64,000 nucleotides of DNA from Synechococcus sp. UW140 (GCA_945875915.1 CAMCMT010000008.1:1-64000); one strand, 5' to 3'. Numbered from the stretch's first letter, positions 35,149-42,950 are shown. Translations and numbers: made by a program. Notes: generated by a model not told the origin, from the letters alone.

Positions 35149-37113
35149 ATGGCCTTGGGTCGAGCTCAACAAATCCACCTTAAAAGTTACCCCAACAGCC
35201 AGTTTGAGCTTCCCCTTGGCGCCCAAATCCTGACCCCCAAGGATGGGCCGACCAAGGGCATCCCCAGGGAGCTCAGCCTGGCGAAACTGCGCGCACACCT
35301 GCTGCACTTGTTAACGCAAGTTTATGGGAGCCAATCGCATCGTGATATTAGGGTACTGTTGCTTTTACCCGATAAAACGCGCAAGCAAACGGCAGCACGA
35401 CTACTCATCGACGCAATGATTGAACTTTGTCAGGACGTGCATACGCTGTCCTTCGACATTATCTTCGGTCTAGGGACCCATCCTGTGATGTCCGATGGGG
35501 ACATCGCAACCATGATCGGCCCCCAAAGGCTGGAACGCCTTGCCGCCCTAGGCACCACCTTGCAACAGCAAACAACCCTCAAACCGCTTGCCCAACGTCA
35601 CATCACGATTCCGCCACCACCCCAACTACTAGACGAACCAGCTGCAGACCAAAAATCAAAACCGGCCTGCCAAGGCCTAGGCGAATCGAACCGTTCAGAG
35701 TGCACCAGAATCGGACTTCCTGCAGCGCTATGGCATTACGATCATATTATTAGCGGCGGCGATACGGATCTGCACCCCTACGAGGGTCGTGCTGGCAGCG
35801 GTGGAATCAATAAAATGTTGGTGGTTGGGATCGGCTGCCTCCATTGCATTCGCATCACCCATACGATGGAAGTTCTCTCCCATGCCCTTACAAGAAGCGG
35901 CGAAGCTAATAACCATTTCGTAAAATTAATTGATCATTTCACGAAAGAGATTACAGCCCAACTAAGAGATGGATCTGGCCGCCTAAAAGCCAATCCCCAT
36001 GGCGTTTCAGTTTTAGCCAAGATAACTGACCAGCCCGATTCCATATGGGTTGGCGATCAAGACAAGAATAGGGCCGTTCTGACGAAGCAACTGGAAATGG
36101 AGCGAACAGTCGCTCTCGAACACCCGGTGAGCTTTGTGATTGTGGACACCGAACGGAGAAAGGCAACAGATATTCTAGCAGGGGCAAGAAGCTTACATTT
36201 TCTCTGCAGCTTTGACGATCCCTCTAATCAACTTCTTTTGCGCCAGCCGGCCGGTCGAAGCGCGCTGATGTTCAACGCCTGCCATGAAATTAAAAACTCC
36301 AATGGGATCGGCAATGCAGGAACCGTGCTGCATCTCAATGCCCTTCGCAGCTTTGTGCATGACTCCATTGCCGAAGCTCGTGATAGTGGCCTAATCCAAG
36401 CCAGCAGCGGCCTCAGCGATAACAAACGACGTAAACTCAAAAAAGATATCCTTGGACGCTGGGAAGACTACCTCCGGCTTGTCAGTAACGAAGACATCTT
36501 TTTCGCACGGATTGAAAGGTTACTGATTGGCATTATCTCAACCGACACCAAAACCCAAGACAAGGGGCCACTCCTTAAGGAGCTCGCCCACAATTTGGAT
36601 GAATCCTTAGTCCATAGCTTTGGCAACCATCGCCATGTGATCACCGGAACCCGTCATCACTTTGCCAACAGTGGTGCCCGTGACGCCCTTCGCTTTTTAC
36701 AACAATCTACGCAGGCACTCGGCTTCAAAGGACTCGGAGAAGGGGGCCAAAGGGCCCTCCGCCTCCTAGTCATTCTACAAAAGTTTGAGACTCTCTATAT
36801 TGCAACGGATAATCAACATGTGCTGGACTTTCTCGTCGAGCTTAATCATCCCCCTGGCATATCCGATCTTGGTCAGCCAACAGACCAATTTCCAACCGAA
36901 GCCGAGCCCAACATCCTTGGCCTCACAGGAATCTCCCTCAATGATTATTCTCCCCAAGCGGCCCTAGAGATTGCTCTTAGTCGGCACTATGATCAAATGA
37001 CTCCGCTTAATGGCAGCGAATTGGCCTTTATCCAGGAACCGGTGATTATCAAACGGAATCTCACCTCAGACCTCAAAACAGTGACCCTACCCTTGCCCCC
37101 TGTTGCCGTTTAA
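35149..37113 (+). CDS. LarA/DUF2088-family protein (nickel-pincer racemase-like), long divergent form
   Basis: A 654-residue protein whose first 240 residues carry the lactate racemase (LarA) pattern. A DKTR box (Asp75-Arg78) and GLGTH with His111 sit where LarA has its DxTR box and His108. HPYEGRAGSGGINK has Lys222 where LarA has the pincer-attachment lysine (Lys184), and His238 is exactly 16 residues later, as in LarA (Lys184/His200). His209 would be the remaining catalytic histidine, with a three-residue longer spacing. The C-terminal half (about 330-654) is unlike standard LarA of about 420 residues; it is helical, with no recognised domain. It probably catalyses racemisation or epimerisation of a hydroxy acid or sugar acid using the nickel-pincer cofactor. 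Cofactor genes larB, larC and larE are not in the window. An AEC transporter follows. AT-rich composition sets it apart. Confidence 0.75.
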   Translation: MALGRAQQIHLKSYPNSQFELPLGAQILTPKDGPTKGIPRELSLAKLRAHLLHLLTQVYGSQSHRDIRVLLLLPDKTRKQTAARLLIDAMIELCQDVHTLSFDIIFGLGTHPVMSDGDIATMIGPQRLERLAALGTTLQQQTTLKPLAQRHITIPPPPQLLDEPAADQKSKPACQGLGESNRSECTRIGLPAALWHYDHIISGGDTDLHPYEGRAGSGGINKMLVVGIGCLHCIRITHTMEVLSHALTRSGEANNHFVKLIDHFTKEITAQLRDGSGRLKANPHGVSVLAKITDQPDSIWVGDQDKNRAVLTKQLEMERTVALEHPVSFVIVDTERRKATDILAGARSLHFLCSFDDPSNQLLLRQPAGRSALMFNACHEIKNSNGIGNAGTVLHLNALRSFVHDSIAEARDSGLIQASSGLSDNKRRKLKKDILGRWEDYLRLVSNEDIFFARIERLLIGIISTDTKTQDKGPLLKELAHNLDESLVHSFGNHRHVITGTRHHFANSGARDALRFLQQSTQALGFKGLGEGGQRALRLLVILQKFETLYIATDNQHVLDFLVELNHPPGISDLGQPTDQFPTEAEPNILGLTGISLNDYSPQAALEIALSRHYDQMTPLNGSELAFIQEPVIIKRNLTSDLKTVTLPLPPVAV

Positions 37114-37155: not shown

Positions 37156-37175
37156 AAAGGGTGCTTAAACCCTTT
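37156..37175 (+). terminator. Hairpin between the LarA-like and transporter genes
   Basis: AAAGGGT (37156-37162), loop GCTTAA, and ACCCTTT (37169-37175), followed by one more T. The 7-base stem with an A-rich 5' side and a T-rich 3' side resembles a weak intrinsic terminator or an attenuator. It ends only 11 bases before the transporter ATG, where a terminator would be placed to limit rather than block read-through. Confidence 0.4.
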
Positions 37176-37186
37176 TGGCATCACCC

Positions 37187-38239
37187 ATGCAATCAATTCT
37201 TCAGATCGCTACCGCCGTTTACCTGCCGATTATCACCGCAGCCCTTGTAGGTGTTTTACTCAGCTTGGTGCTGACTCGCTCGGGTCGAATGGTGCGCAAC
37301 CAACCCGTTCAGGAATTGCTCCCTGATGTGCTGGCTCGGTTTCTCTATCTAGTTGGCATTCCAATTGGCGTTGCCAACTTCATCCGCAAAGCCGAATTCA
37401 ACCCATCCGTCTGGATTTCGCCAGTTATAGCCTGGTCAGCAGTGCTATTAGCAATATTTTTGAGCTGGCACTTCTTAAAAGGCTCTGCAAAACCCCGCTC
37501 AAAAAGCACCAAAGCCAGTTTTACGCTTCTAAGCTACCTAGGAAATACGAGCTATTTAGGATTTCCTGTCATCCTGCTGCTGCCACAATTAGGCCCCCAA
37601 TACTTTAGTTCAGCCGTTCTTTACGACATCCTTGGCACACTCGTGGCTGGCTACGGCCTGGGCGTCTTCTTTGCCGGTCAGGCCAGTCGCAACACTGCTG
37701 AAGGCAACACCGCTTCGGTTAGTCGCTCCAGCTCCAGCGAAGCCGGATTAGCAATGAGTACTACCAAGCGAGATGGGGCGGGGGCACTCCTTGATGCACT
37801 CACCGAAGTCGCCAAAAACCCTACATTTTATGCTTTTTTCGTTGGCCTTTACCTAAAGACCCTTAATATACCCGAATGGATTGTGTCTGGACTAGGCGCA
37901 ATTGCTTGGTCATCCATCATGGTTGCCCTGATTGTGATGGGCATGAGAATACAACAACTCTCTTCCAAGCTCAACCTAAAACTTGCAATCCAACCTGTCC
38001 TCATTAAAACGATTCTTGTCCCCCTTGTACTCGCAGCTGCCTTAACCGGATTGGGTCTTGAAGGCCCCCAGCGCTTGGTGCTGATTCTTCAATCGGCCAT
38101 GCCCTGCGGATTTATTTCATTAGTACTAGCTGAAAACTATGGTCTTGATGTTGAGCTTACTGTCGCCTCAATCTTACTTTCTTGCATTGTTTTTGCCTTC
38201 ATGTTACCCGTCTGGGCAACCCTATTTACAACGTGGTAG
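37187..38239 (+). CDS. AEC-family (auxin efflux carrier-type) transporter
   Basis: A 350-residue membrane protein with about ten segments arranged as two halves joined by a hydrophilic Ser/Thr-rich loop (about 160-200). This is the layout of AEC/BASS-fold permeases, whose bacterial members move malonate, malate or other carboxylates. Typical pieces are SYLGNTSYLGFPVILLLPQLGP in the first half and QSAMPCGFISLVLAENYGLD in the second. The start is ATG 37187; an in-frame TTG at 37175 would add four residues. It lies 73 bases after the LarA-like gene, so a shared small organic acid substrate is plausible (inference). AT-rich, as is its neighbour. Confidence 0.8.
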   Translation: MQSILQIATAVYLPIITAALVGVLLSLVLTRSGRMVRNQPVQELLPDVLARFLYLVGIPIGVANFIRKAEFNPSVWISPVIAWSAVLLAIFLSWHFLKGSAKPRSKSTKASFTLLSYLGNTSYLGFPVILLLPQLGPQYFSSAVLYDILGTLVAGYGLGVFFAGQASRNTAEGNTASVSRSSSSEAGLAMSTTKRDGAGALLDALTEVAKNPTFYAFFVGLYLKTLNIPEWIVSGLGAIAWSSIMVALIVMGMRIQQLSSKLNLKLAIQPVLIKTILVPLVLAAALTGLGLEGPQRLVLILQSAMPCGFISLVLAENYGLDVELTVASILLSCIVFAFMLPVWATLFTTW

Positions 38240-38337: not shown

Positions 38338-38361
38338 GATACGGGGATACGGGGATACGGG
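38338..38361. repeat. Three tandem copies of GATACGGG
   Basis: Perfect 8-base copies occupy 38338-38345, 38346-38353 and 38354-38361. They end 14 bases before the -35 box of the promoter at 38376-38404. That placement is typical of activator sites, although an 8-base period does not keep copies on the same helix face. A polymorphic short tandem repeat is an alternative. The rest of the 186-base gap is unremarkable. Confidence 0.8.
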
Positions 38362-38375
38362 TCCCTTGCTCTAAG

Positions 38376-38404
38376 TTGAAAAAGCCTTACTTACCTGCTA
38401 GAAT
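38376..38404 (+). promoter_or_regulatory. Sigma70-type promoter for the solute-binding protein/Cache/cyclase unit
   Basis: TTGAAA (38376-38381), a 17-base spacer, and TAGAAT (38399-38404) closely match the vegetative consensus. The -10 box lies 21 bases before the ATG at 38426, so the leader would be only about 15 bases with no obvious Shine-Dalgarno sequence. This places the three following genes in a unit separate from the transporter. Confidence 0.65.
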
Positions 38405-38425: not shown

Positions 38426-39799
38426 ATGAAGAGACGCGATTTTATTGCCATCGGGGTTGCCGGTGGCCTGCTTGCCTCCTGCAAATCACTTGGATTGCCG
38501 GGTGCTGGTGGCATCAATCAAAGCAAGCACGATCTAGAAGTTTGGTGGTCTGAAGGATATTACCCTGAAGAAACCGATGCGATTGAAACGATCTTCGCAA
38601 ATTGGCAACGTATTACTGGCAACAAACTCAACCTCAGTTTCTTTAGTGAAAATGAACTAGCTGCCAAAGCGCGTTCGGCCATCGATGGTGGACCCACGCC
38701 AGACCTCCTCTATGGCTATGGGATCAACGATACGGTTGTTCCTATTCTCAGCTATAACAATCAACTCGTTGCCCTAGACGAGGTCGTTAAGCCCATCAAA
38801 GACGACCTATTGCCAGGCGTGATTGATGGCGTTACCTATCTCAATAAACAAACCAAGAACAAGTCGATTTACGCGATTCCAATCTCCCAGCACTCCGTTA
38901 ATCTCCATTACTGGAAAGATCTGGTTGAGGAGGCCTTTGGCGGCAATGAACAAAATAAAAAGATCCCGAATGAATGGAATGCATTCTGGGATTATTGGCA
39001 TGCAAGCCAAAAAGCATTGCGCCAAAAGGGTTATGACGAAATCTATGGCATGTCCCTACCCATGTCGAACCTGGCTAGGGATACCAGCTATATCTTTGAG
39101 TTTTTCTTAGAAGCCCACAATGCCAAGATCTTGACCCCTTCAGGCAAACTCAATGTCGAGGATCCGGTAACACGTCAAAGAATCATCAGTGCAATTAACG
39201 ATTACACCAGTAATTACAAAGACAAATATGTGCCTCCCAAGGCGACAAGTTGGTCAGACGCTGATAATAATATCAACTTTCTCAGCAGTCTCTCCGTGAT
39301 GACTTCAAACCCGACCCTTTCGATTCCTGGCTCCCAGCTTTCTGATGAAATCGCCTACTTCGAAAGGCTTGGTTCCTTGCCCTGGCCCAACAAGCTTGAC
39401 GGCTCGCCGATGCGGTCATTTATCTCGGTGAAGCAAGCCATTGTCTTTAACAGTTCCAACGTAGCCAAGGCTAAAGACTTACTTGCATACGTTCTCAAAA
39501 CAGAAAATCTAAGTCGTTATGTGGAAGGTTCCCAGGGTCGTTTCTTACCTACCACAAAGTCAATCATGGCCATGCCCTTTTGGCACAATGCAAAAGATGT
39601 GCATATCGCCACTGCAATCCAAAACATGAAGTCTTCAAAAATACCTGGATGGATTCTCAATCCTGCCTACAGCGAGGTAATCTCTAAAAACATCTGGGGG
39701 AAAGTAATTGAGGCTGTTGCCACCGGTAGCACACCGACAGAGAAGGCTGTAGACGGTGCCATCACTGAGATCCGCACTATTTTTGCTGGTTGGAACTAA
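38426..39799 (+). CDS. Extracellular solute-binding lipoprotein (family 1 type)
   Basis: A 457-residue periplasmic binding protein. The N-terminus MKRRDFIAIGVAGGLLASCK combines a twin-arginine-like start with a lipobox (LLASC), so it is probably an exported lipoprotein anchored by Cys19. The mature part has the ABC sugar-binding (ExtSBP family 1) pattern: LEVWWSEGYYPEETDAIETIFANW, GPTPDLLYGYG, IYAIPISQHSVNLHYWKDLVEE, and late LPWPNKLDGSPMRSFISVKQAIVFN. No permease or ATPase gene is nearby. It is followed 10 bases later by a Cache-like membrane sensor and then a Cache-type cyclase, suggesting that it delivers a ligand to sensors rather than to a transporter (inference). Confidence 0.88.
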   Translation: MKRRDFIAIGVAGGLLASCKSLGLPGAGGINQSKHDLEVWWSEGYYPEETDAIETIFANWQRITGNKLNLSFFSENELAAKARSAIDGGPTPDLLYGYGINDTVVPILSYNNQLVALDEVVKPIKDDLLPGVIDGVTYLNKQTKNKSIYAIPISQHSVNLHYWKDLVEEAFGGNEQNKKIPNEWNAFWDYWHASQKALRQKGYDEIYGMSLPMSNLARDTSYIFEFFLEAHNAKILTPSGKLNVEDPVTRQRIISAINDYTSNYKDKYVPPKATSWSDADNNINFLSSLSVMTSNPTLSIPGSQLSDEIAYFERLGSLPWPNKLDGSPMRSFISVKQAIVFNSSNVAKAKDLLAYVLKTENLSRYVEGSQGRFLPTTKSIMAMPFWHNAKDVHIATAIQNMKSSKIPGWILNPAYSEVISKNIWGKVIEAVATGSTPTEKAVDGAITEIRTIFAGWN

Positions 39800-39809
39800 A
39801 AACTGAACC

Positions 39810-40811
39810 ATGAAAAAACGTTCTTTTTGGATCAAGCTTTCCATCGCCACCCTGACCTCATCAAGCGTCATCTCCGTAGTTGCCTACCTGCTTGCCAATG
39901 GTCCCCTAGCTGCCAAAGCACTGGCAAACCAACGAACTATCCTGCAGGAAAAGCAAGCTCGCATTGAGCAATGGTGGGAAGGAGAGGTCAAGGACATCGG
40001 CAAAGATCTTCGAAATCCCAAATTAGTTGAAAATTCGCTCACTATTCTGCAAGCGAAACGCCATAGCCGTGCAGATATTAATTCCGCAACTAGTCTTGCT
40101 CTCGAAGCGATTCTCACCAGCCATCAAAGCAACCGTAACAGCGCCTCTTTGTTGACAAAGGGCGGCATTGTCGTTTTTTCAACTGATCACGACAAATACG
40201 CAGCCTATCAACCCCTTAAAAATACAACTACAAGCCTAGAACTGGAAGAACTTCCCAGCACCCCTCTGAACTTTTTTACCAATTCAAGTACTGGCCTACC
40301 CTCGATCTCAGTTGCCTTACCCATCTACATAGCCCCCAAGAAAAAAGCAGGATTCCTCGCAATTGATCTCAATTTACGCAAGCTCAATAACCAAATCACT
40401 GAACCAGCCCCTAACAGTAAAGAAGCTCAACCGCGTGGATCTGCACCTATCAAATCCTATTTAGTGGCACGCACTTCCCTAGACCAAGCCACCTTTATAG
40501 CGCCACCCGCCCAAAGCCCACCTGACTACGAATTCAAACCTTTAGATAGTGTTGGTATTCGCAAGGCCCTAGATGGCAATTCAGGCGAGGGCTTCTATCT
40601 CAATAGCGAAGGAGTTCCTGTCGTTGGTATTTATCAATATTTGCCAAATTTCCGTACAGCCGTGCTGGTTGAAAGCCGCCAAAAAGATATCTATGCATCA
40701 TCCCGAACAATGGGCCTGCAGATTTTTGAGGTCGGCGCTGCTCTATCCCTGCTCAGCTTGGGGATGGGTTTGCTTGTTGATAAAAAGGATAATCAGCAAA
40801 TAGAGTCTTAA
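39810..40811 (+). CDS. Membrane-bound Cache-like sensor without output domain
   Basis: A 333-residue protein with an N-terminal membrane segment (WIKLSIATLTSSSVISVVAYLLA, about 7-29), a large extracytoplasmic region of about 270 residues, and a second membrane segment near the end (IFEVGAALSLLSLGMGLLVD, about 306-325) followed by only about eight cytoplasmic residues. The outer region has features of double-Cache domains: a long first helix (NQRTILQEKQARIEQWWEGEVKD), ALPIYI...KKKAGFLAIDLNL, and GVPVVGIYQYLPNFRTAVLVESR. There is no kinase, cyclase, GGDEF or methyl-accepting domain. It probably acts with the neighbouring binding protein and cyclase, for instance as a hetero-oligomer partner of the cyclase sensor. 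Family assignment is by pattern, not by search. Confidence 0.7.
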   Translation: MKKRSFWIKLSIATLTSSSVISVVAYLLANGPLAAKALANQRTILQEKQARIEQWWEGEVKDIGKDLRNPKLVENSLTILQAKRHSRADINSATSLALEAILTSHQSNRNSASLLTKGGIVVFSTDHDKYAAYQPLKNTTTSLELEELPSTPLNFFTNSSTGLPSISVALPIYIAPKKKAGFLAIDLNLRKLNNQITEPAPNSKEAQPRGSAPIKSYLVARTSLDQATFIAPPAQSPPDYEFKPLDSVGIRKALDGNSGEGFYLNSEGVPVVGIYQYLPNFRTAVLVESRQKDIYASSRTMGLQIFEVGAALSLLSLGMGLLVDKKDNQQIES

Positions 40812-40859
40812 GCCTCGCCTCCATAGGCTCTATTAAACCCCAAACACTCCTTAACTGCC

Positions 40860-42950
40860 ATGGAAGTCCCGCTCGAGGCCATTCCCAATTCTCGTAAGCG
40901 TCCTATTGTGCCGAACCTATCAATTTTAAGGCGACTACAATTCACCTTTACATTTCAAATTACAGTTGCACTCATTGCCTCTTTTTGCCTAGGCAATGTA
41001 GCTCTTTTTCAAATAGCATCTAAACGTTTGCTGGCCAATGAGCAAAGACGTTTTCGTGATAATGTTCTTTATTTAAGTAGCAGCATTCTGGCCTATCAAG
41101 ATTCCATTGATACGGAACTTGCCTTTGCCGCCAATTCGCCAGAGGTAAGAAGTCTTGATAGAAAAAGAATTCTCGCGGAATTAAAGCCAATTATGGACGC
41201 CAATCCCTTGCGGAAATGGCGCATATGGCGACGGGACGGCAAACTGTTAGCCAGCAACCCTCCTGAAACTAATATCAAACTTAAAGAGAAAAGGATACTC
41301 ACAGCTCCATATTTTATCCAGGCACTCAATGGTAAAAGTAATTACAGTATTCGCTCCACTCTAGTTGGTGCAAGGCTTGAGGGTTGCCTAGAGGCAGCCC
41401 ATCCCATCTATCCGCTTATCAGTAATGGTAAAGCAACAAAGCCCTCCGCTATCCTATCTTTTTGTCTGCCAATCTCAAAAATTGGCGTAGACAGTGGCCT
41501 CGTTAATGTTGAAAAAATAAGCATGGCCAACCAGCCCGGCGTAGCCAAGCAAAGAGACGAGTACCTTGCCCTTCATCGCGGTAAATATAACGGACGTTTA
41601 TTTTTTATGATTGCAACATCTGGCAACCTTATCTTACCGACTATCTCCACTAATGGGTTTGATCATATTTCGCTGCTGACGGCTCGCCGCCTTGCTAAAA
41701 CCAATTATCGGGGCTTTGTTGATGCGGCTGGCGATTTACCGCTCCGGGATACGTTGCAACGGGTTGAAGTTGACGGCCACTCCTTCTTCCTCTATGCCCA
41801 CAAAGTCAATGAAAACTGGACAGCTGTTAGCGTCGTTGATGAGCAAACAATCTACGCGCCCCTAAACAAAAATCTGCTTGTGCTAGTTCTAATCCAATTA
41901 TTTACTTTATTGGCCACCAGCATTGTTATTTTCTATGTCTGCCGCCAACTGGTGAAGCCCCTGAAAGCTGTTGTTTCAACCGTTTCGCAGCTTAGCAACC
42001 TTGAGATTCCGCAGCAACAGCCTAAAAGTCTGTCAACTTCCAATATTATTGAAATCAACCAAGTTTCTGCGGCAATTAGCAAGCTTTCCTTTGCGATGGA
42101 TTCGTTCAGTCGCTACCTACCCCGCGAGGTTGTTAAGTCTGTACTGAACTCCAAGCAAAGTGCTCGGCTCGGCGGGGAAACGCGCGAGCTAGTGATGCTA
42201 TTCACTGATATTCGCAACTTCACAACCTATTCAGAATCGGGTGATGCCATCATGATCCTCGATCATCTGAATACATATATGACGGCATTGACATCCCGAA
42301 TAATGGAAACATCGGGAACTATTGACAAGTATATTGGCGACTCGGTGATGGCTTTTTGGGGAGCGCCCTACACCGTGGATCAACCAGCCTGTAAGGGCTG
42401 CACGGCTGCGCTTGCGGTGCAAGAAGAAACGTCTCGGCTCAATCTAGAATGGGAACAAGTAGGTATTGACCTGCAGTTCTTCACGCGTGTTGGCGTTAAC
42501 ATAGGTTCTGTGATTGTTGGCAATGTGGGTTCGGAGGAGCGTTTTAATTATACTGTAATCGGAGATCCGGTTAATCTGGCAAGTCGCCTCGAAGGCACCA
42601 ATAAATTATACGGGACTGGCATACTTGTTAGCCAAGCGATCGTCGATGCCGTCAATAAGGAAGATAGCAATCATGACTTCTGCTTCCGTTTGATGGATCG
42701 CGTCAAGGTCAAAGGTAAAAATTTATCCACGGATATCTATGAGTTAGTTGGCTACAGTAGCCATTTCCACCCGCTCGAACTGGAAGACTTGGCGACTGCC
42801 AATGCGATCATGGCAACGTCATTGGATAGGGGTGTGAACTTAGCTCTTGAGAAGTTACTCGCCTTACCAACTGACAAACCCCATACGCGCTTTCTACTTG
42901 AACTCCGCACCATGCTGACGCAGCGGCAGCCAGCCAGCGAGCCTGCCTGA
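40860..42950 (+). CDS. Class III adenylate cyclase with extracytoplasmic Cache-like sensor and HAMP
   Basis: A 696-residue membrane cyclase making cAMP. It has a membrane segment (about 24-52), a periplasmic double-Cache-like region of about 290 residues, a second membrane segment (VLVLIQLFTLLATSIVIFYVC, about 342-362), a HAMP-like linker starting VKPLKAVVSTVSQL, and a class III catalytic domain from about 440. Catalytic residues are all present: metal-binding Asp450 (FTDIRNF) and Asp494; adenine-specifying Lys490 (KYIGD) and Asp569; transition-state Asn572 and Arg576 (DPVNLASR). The Lys/Asp pair points to ATP rather than GTP. Layout resembles cyanobacterial CyaG-type sensors. The gene lies 48 bases after the Cache-like sensor. 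Confidence 0.92.
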   Translation: MEVPLEAIPNSRKRPIVPNLSILRRLQFTFTFQITVALIASFCLGNVALFQIASKRLLANEQRRFRDNVLYLSSSILAYQDSIDTELAFAANSPEVRSLDRKRILAELKPIMDANPLRKWRIWRRDGKLLASNPPETNIKLKEKRILTAPYFIQALNGKSNYSIRSTLVGARLEGCLEAAHPIYPLISNGKATKPSAILSFCLPISKIGVDSGLVNVEKISMANQPGVAKQRDEYLALHRGKYNGRLFFMIATSGNLILPTISTNGFDHISLLTARRLAKTNYRGFVDAAGDLPLRDTLQRVEVDGHSFFLYAHKVNENWTAVSVVDEQTIYAPLNKNLLVLVLIQLFTLLATSIVIFYVCRQLVKPLKAVVSTVSQLSNLEIPQQQPKSLSTSNIIEINQVSAAISKLSFAMDSFSRYLPREVVKSVLNSKQSARLGGETRELVMLFTDIRNFTTYSESGDAIMILDHLNTYMTALTSRIMETSGTIDKYIGDSVMAFWGAPYTVDQPACKGCTAALAVQEETSRLNLEWEQVGIDLQFFTRVGVNIGSVIVGNVGSEERFNYTVIGDPVNLASRLEGTNKLYGTGILVSQAIVDAVNKEDSNHDFCFRLMDRVKVKGKNLSTDIYELVGYSSHFHPLELEDLATANAIMATSLDRGVNLALEKLLALPTDKPHTRFLLELRTMLTQRQPASEPA

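Follow-up and report, generated by a model that had tools for sequence, protein, structure and literature searches.

A solute-binding lipoprotein (SBP), a membrane Cache protein without an output domain (A) and a Cache adenylate cyclase (B) are encoded one after another in the freshwater picocyanobacterium Synechococcus sp. UW140, within the 64,000-nt stretch of DNA analysed here (the window). Together they may constitute an extracytoplasmic nutrient sensor, in which the SBP gates the receptor, A serves as an output-less Cache co-receptor and cAMP is the output. We give this reading a probability of roughly 60%. Its firmest part is that the SBP would signal to a Cache receptor, and we also infer, with good support, a link from the SBP to cAMP. 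Comparison of about 100 relatives indicates an ancient, widely distributed sensing half whose output has been swapped among kinase, phosphatase and cyclase. The initial annotation of this DNA, which described a three-gene composition, had overlooked the kinase and PP2C outputs of the same SBP-Cache system.

Genes of the locus

The three open reading frames are all on the plus strand, separated by gaps of 10 and 48 nt, and lie where the initial annotation had placed them. The SBP gene (38426..39799, 457 aa) is assigned from Pfam, an invariant cysteine and an AlphaFold2 model. Its product matches SBP_bac_8 (6.7e-17) and SBP_bac_1 (1.7e-12), and the lipobox residue Cys19 (codon 38480-38482) is invariant across 43 homologues, which agrees with its earlier description as a family 1 binding protein with a lipobox. 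A sequence search against solved structures gave no match for the SBP, but fold comparison of its model (pLDDT 91.5) did, the nearest solved folds being beta-glycoside and maltooligosaccharide binding proteins (Z about 36-38).

Protein A (39810..40811, plus strand, 333 aa) is defined by profile match, transmembrane topology and clade membership. Transmembrane segments lie at both of its ends (10-28 and 305-323), and its cytosolic tail is 10 aa long. Since the chain stops ten residues past the second membrane segment, A cannot hold an output domain. It scores 34 bits against Pfam dCache_1, below the 45-bit cut-off, and its profile gives no more than marginal matches to PDB sequences. In profile-profile comparison, however, it matches the sensors of SBP-linked, Pfam-positive Cache histidine kinases with an E-value of 1.9e-64. 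The view of A as a membrane Cache-like protein without output is thus upheld. The double-Cache fold, a double PAS-like unit that has a long N-terminal helix and sits between two transmembrane segments, is recognised by profile in A and by model in the sensor of B.

Receptor B (40860..42950, plus strand, 696 aa) was assigned from Pfam, profiles and a model as a double-Cache, HAMP-like, class III adenylate cyclase. Its catalytic domain (residues 443-621, 42186..42722) matches Guanylate_cyc (PF00211, 5.1e-21), and the closest solved structure is P. aeruginosa CyaB (3r5g, 1e-27). The class III residues are complete, as had been claimed: the metal-binding Asp450 and Asp494, the adenine-recognising Lys490/Thr565 pair and the transition-state residues Asn572 and Arg576 are all present. 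Pfam matched neither Cache nor HAMP in B. The extracytoplasmic sensor (residues 50-337, 41007..41870) is a double Cache in the AlphaFold2 model (mean pLDDT 81.7), with Z about 17 to PscC, Mlp24 and PctB. The place expected for HAMP is helical in the model, and SpoIIE-type homologues have a Pfam HAMP match there. Of the earlier label of Cache-HAMP cyclase, the Cache part is borne out by the model, whereas HAMP is seen by Pfam only in these homologues and not in B itself.

Two further genes lie upstream on the same strand and in the same conserved neighbourhood, and were missed when the locus was taken for a three-gene unit. The nearer one (37175..38239, 354 aa) encodes an AEC (auxin efflux carrier) family permease, with a Mem_trans match (PF03547) of 1.5e-24. 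The other (35149..37113, 654 aa) encodes a LarA-like protein, a long and divergent putative homologue of the racemases/epimerases with a nickel-pincer nucleotide. Its Pfam Lar_N score of 21.1 bits is just under the cut-off; its profile matches 4nar, Mar2 and LarA in the PDB, and the active-site-type residues D75, T77, R78, H111, H209, K222 and H238 are invariant with one canonical-length LarA homologue. Alpha-hydroxy acids are the substrates of LarA enzymes. The LarA family is one of racemases and epimerases (PMC11796402). Long LarA-like proteins of 600-711 aa form a divergent subfamily found in the window and at loci L013, L014, L064, L066 and L085. They have an extra C-terminal half, keep the active-site residues and are tied to SBP-Cache-AEC loci.

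Between the AEC and SBP genes, the sequence shows three tandem copies of GATACGGG (38338..38361, plus strand). A sigma70-like promoter proposed for the unit is present as a match (TTGAAA-N17-TAGAAT with an extended -10 TG, 38376..38404, plus strand). As evidence it is no better than chance, the region containing 12 promoter-type matches versus 10.3 in shuffled sequences.

No ABC permease or ATPase gene adjoins the SBP gene, as the initial annotation had observed, so the locus does not have the composition of a CUT1-type ABC importer. The SBP might nevertheless serve an ABC transporter whose genes are at another place in the genome, and be grouped with the Cache genes for transcription only. 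The genome does contain one dispersed CUT1-type permease set, with a MalG/UgpE-like gene at C1:92172 and a MalF/UgpA-like gene at C78:838. However, these are its only CUT1-type permease genes, they lie on other contigs, far from the window locus, and a second and better suited SBP_bac_8 protein (C51) is available for them. The family of the window SBP, moreover, is tied to Cache receptors throughout the phylum. We regard service to a distant ABC transporter as very improbable.

Pairing of the binding protein with Cache receptors

Of 390 Cyanobacteriia genomes sampled, 87 contain homologues of the SBP (E < 1e-30); gene neighbourhoods were read at 109 loci. At 102 of these loci, a Cache protein of the type described here lies within 9 kb of the SBP gene; at 78 a Cache histidine kinase is directly downstream. 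Identity matrices of the SBPs and their Cache proteins are correlated (r = 0.84). In 15 genomes carrying two such systems, 55 of 56 informative comparisons leave the SBP-Cache partnership intact. The SBP and the Cache protein are thus inherited as a pair, and this co-inheritance, with the pairing seen across the phylum, strongly supports signalling from the SBP to the Cache receptor. Seventeen control loci, which encode Cache-SpoIIE receptors, show none of the neighbours counted at the SBP loci, including the AEC and LarA-like genes.

The AEC gene is a less constant companion. It lies within 9 kb of the SBP gene at 44 of the 109 loci (versus 0 of the 17 control loci), and it overlaps the SBP gene in L221; the LarA-like gene is near the SBP gene at nine loci. 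AEC, SBP and A genes are contiguous in the genomes with the complete trio and in three others (G427, G248 and G289). Together with the existence of SBP-dependent secondary carriers such as TRAP and TTT, this raises the possibility of a transport core, in which the SBP feeds the AEC permease, A is an accessory subunit of a binding-protein-dependent secondary transporter, and the cyclase is a co-regulated neighbour. Such a transporter seems improbable to us: most SBP loci carry a Cache kinase without a nearby AEC gene, the pairing of SBP and Cache is far tighter than that of SBP and AEC, and to our knowledge AEC carriers do not use SBPs.

Gene order around these pairs can be well kept. In L018 and L078-L099 (f23 genomes) it is AEC permease, D-2-hydroxyacid dehydrogenase, HAD phosphatase, SBP and Cache hybrid kinase. 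Tandem SBP paralogues were seen in L076 (10122-11531 and its neighbour) and in L125 (7035-10103), the latter without an adjoining Cache gene.

Within the picocyanobacterial family, represented by 400 genomes, the SBP is found in nine genomes and a close B-type sensor (E < 1e-160) also in nine, eight of which are common to both (Fisher p about 5e-15; the test assumes independent genomes, an assumption that does not hold here, and about five genera are involved). Of these eight, two are without A or without the cyclase output. Six genomes, from two genera, encode SBP, A and cyclase in direct succession, with genes that overlap or nearly touch (the window genome G000, G004, G251, G316, G616 and G639), so the trio is conserved elsewhere. 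In the last four, which belong to one genus, the SBP gene overlaps that of A and the AEC gene is upstream. Chance adjacency of the three genes was ruled out by this conservation and by their co-occurrence.

Other relatives carry variants of the arrangement. The order in G027 is Cache-PP2C, LarA-like, AEC, SBP and A, the B-type sensor having a SpoIIE/PP2C output. In G033, a Cache-cyclase directly follows the SBP and no A homologue was detected in the genome. G099, G248 and G289 have SBP and A together, with a Cache-HAMP histidine kinase about 3 kb off (G099) or elsewhere (G248 and G289). G427 has SBP and A, with no B-type sensor and no clear partner found. A cyclase of G427 (L220:2490-4619) was considered as the partner of A and excluded, as it is on the opposite strand beyond urease-accessory-like ORFs.

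The output-less protein and its partners

When 96 Cache sensors were placed on a tree, the 14 output-less A proteins, which come from four GTDB families, fell on one side of a branch with support of 100/99. The root of this tree is unknown and some rows are on long branches; the analysis was repeated with a second sample. Four apparent output-less cases (L074, L075, L100 and L183), seemingly frameshifted or contig-end kinases, were set aside. Since the 14 proteins group as one clade, A is an old subfamily rather than a collection of recent truncations. The idea that A is a pseudogene or a truncated kinase was ruled out by this single clade and by the sequence conservation of A.

The partners of the A clade vary: they are Cache-cyclase, Cache-PP2C phosphatase or Cache-HAMP proteins. 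At four loci outside the family of the window, the gene after A encodes another Cache-HAMP protein, one that stems from kinase-type sensors. Longer A-type proteins, of 535-561 aa, are encoded at L068 (10173-11780), L069 and L070. The one at L068 also carries an N-terminal peptidoglycan-binding domain (PF01471), and the next gene there encodes a further Cache protein without output, of the Cache-HAMP kind.

The sensors of A and B gave no direct match to each other as profiles, though each matches the sensors of the same Cache histidine kinases (3.8e-8 for B). Within the picocyanobacterial family, the remote relatives of the B sensor are Cache-HAMP-SpoIIE receptors. On a tree built from 25 of these sensors, the six that bear a cyclase form one clade (100/98), beside the PP2C protein of G027 and inside the PP2C-bearing receptors. 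This nesting is consistent with the cyclase sensor having been derived from Cache-HAMP-PP2C receptors by a single output swap.

How A takes part in signalling is judged from comparative data of several kinds. Gene order, the separate clade of A and the recurrence of Cache membrane-protein pairs in succession make it likely that A and B form a single complex, and the last two points make a hetero-oligomer plausible. More specifically, the cyclase could be heteromeric, with an ancient output-less Cache subunit that reads the SBP and has been reused with histidine kinase, PP2C and adenylate cyclase partners in different cyanobacteria, which would make it a modular receptor with a dedicated co-receptor that gives no signal of its own; to this fuller proposal we attach somewhat less than even odds. 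The SBP could also signal straight to the Cache homodimer of the cyclase, A then being a separate SBP-binding decoy, buffer or permease regulator. The genome of G033, with an SBP followed by a Cache-cyclase and without A, fits this arrangement and implies that B can work without A and that A is not always needed. Most cyanobacteria, in which the SBP has a single Cache histidine kinase as partner and A is absent, fit it as well, as does G427, in which A occurs without a B-type sensor. On the other hand, A sits between SBP and cyclase, through overlapping genes in four congeneric genomes and with short gaps here, and successive Cache proteins also occur in unrelated families (L068-L070 and L085). 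Direct signalling past A is considered unlikely, if less so than either transport reading. It had originally been proposed that the SBP acts on a hetero-oligomeric Cache receptor controlling cAMP. The refuting conditions set for that proposal mostly turned out in its favour, as the trio recurs in other genomes and the only CUT1-type permease genes are distant and have another SBP at hand. Signalling from SBP to Cache is favoured by the phylum-wide pairing and co-inheritance, while the A/B heteromer, set against G033 and G427, stands as plausible.

Proposed signalling route and comparison with known systems

In the preferred reading, with A as co-receptor, the lipid-anchored SBP would capture an organic solute and, loaded or empty, would dock on one or more periplasmic double-Cache modules at the membrane. 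A would be the docking co-receptor, most likely complexed with the Cache-HAMP-cyclase B. The signal would pass through the second transmembrane helix of B and the HAMP-like segment, and would change the activity of the dimeric class III cyclase in one direction or the other. The sugar-type fold of the SBP and its LarA-like and AEC neighbours suggest that the ligand is likely to be a sugar-like or a polyhydroxy or alpha-hydroxy acid compound. The AEC permease and the LarA-like enzyme probably move and convert the same solute or its product. The B sensor could also bind a ligand of its own without the SBP. Further points against the preferred reading are the lack of a direct profile match between A and B, the distant kinase genes of G248 and G289, and the small number of family genomes, eight, that have the SBP together with this B sensor.

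Two cyclic-nucleotide receptors are encoded in the genome, a CRP-type regulator (C12) and a cNMP-gated MscS-type channel (C23), and both may be targets of the cAMP formed. The genome has one further cyclase, of the CHASE2 type. In G427, the dCache-HAMP class III cyclase of L220 adjoins an MscS channel with a cNMP-binding domain (L220:2490-6070), likely a cAMP-gated channel pair. In L261 (G099), an MscS-like gene comes after one for a similar dCache protein, the likeness being seen at the level of the gene pair.

Several SBP-activated receptors are known, including LuxP-LuxQ, TorT-TorS, XylFII-LytS and NspS-MbaA, and LuxQ has a tandem PAS/Cache-type sensor. As in the window, the binding protein is encoded beside a transmembrane receptor, which reads it through an extracytoplasmic domain. 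The window differs from all four in its output, a class III adenylate cyclase, and in the additional output-less Cache protein. The outputs listed in a survey of SBP-activated systems are chemoreceptors, kinases, diguanylate cyclases/phosphodiesterases and Ser/Thr kinases, and adenylate cyclases are absent from it (PMC9602780).

Indirect sensing through SBPs is already known, and so is a three-part relay of SBP, output-less membrane protein and enzyme, namely GlnH-GlnX-PknG of actinobacteria. There, GlnX crosses the membrane with four helices and contains two four-helix-bundle domains, and a cytoplasmic Ser/Thr kinase provides the output (PMC9769921, PMC6069109). Both systems combine an SBP lipoprotein, a membrane transmitter without a catalytic domain and a separate output enzyme. 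In the window, however, the transmitter role would fall to a double Cache, and the output enzyme, a cyclase, is a Cache membrane protein as well.

Closer relatives are found among cyanobacteria. Pairs of an SBP and a dCache-HAMP-(PAS)-hybrid histidine kinase share the SBP family, the Cache family and the frequent AEC neighbour, but their output is a two-component phosphorelay contained in one protein, with no separate A. We found no publication on this cyanobacterial SBP-Cache family in the open-licence literature. If the reading is true, an SBP-driven adenylate cyclase would add a receptor class to kinases, chemoreceptors, c-di-GMP enzymes and Ser/Thr kinases, and the clade of Cache proteins without output would provide a case of a dedicated co-receptor subunit open to experiment. 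Picocyanobacterial cAMP signalling, for which inorganic carbon and light are the main inputs known (PMC10117731), would gain an organic-nutrient input.

Finally, the picocyanobacterial Cache-HAMP-SpoIIE (PP2C) receptors resemble the window system in that the cyclase sensor is nested among them. The window differs from them in that its receptor carries a cyclase domain where they carry PP2C, and has an SBP as neighbour. At L223-L226, L233-L235 and L237, such receptors are encoded near STAS-like small proteins and genes resembling those of glycoside and glycogen metabolism. This suggests a partner-switching system acting over carbohydrate storage.
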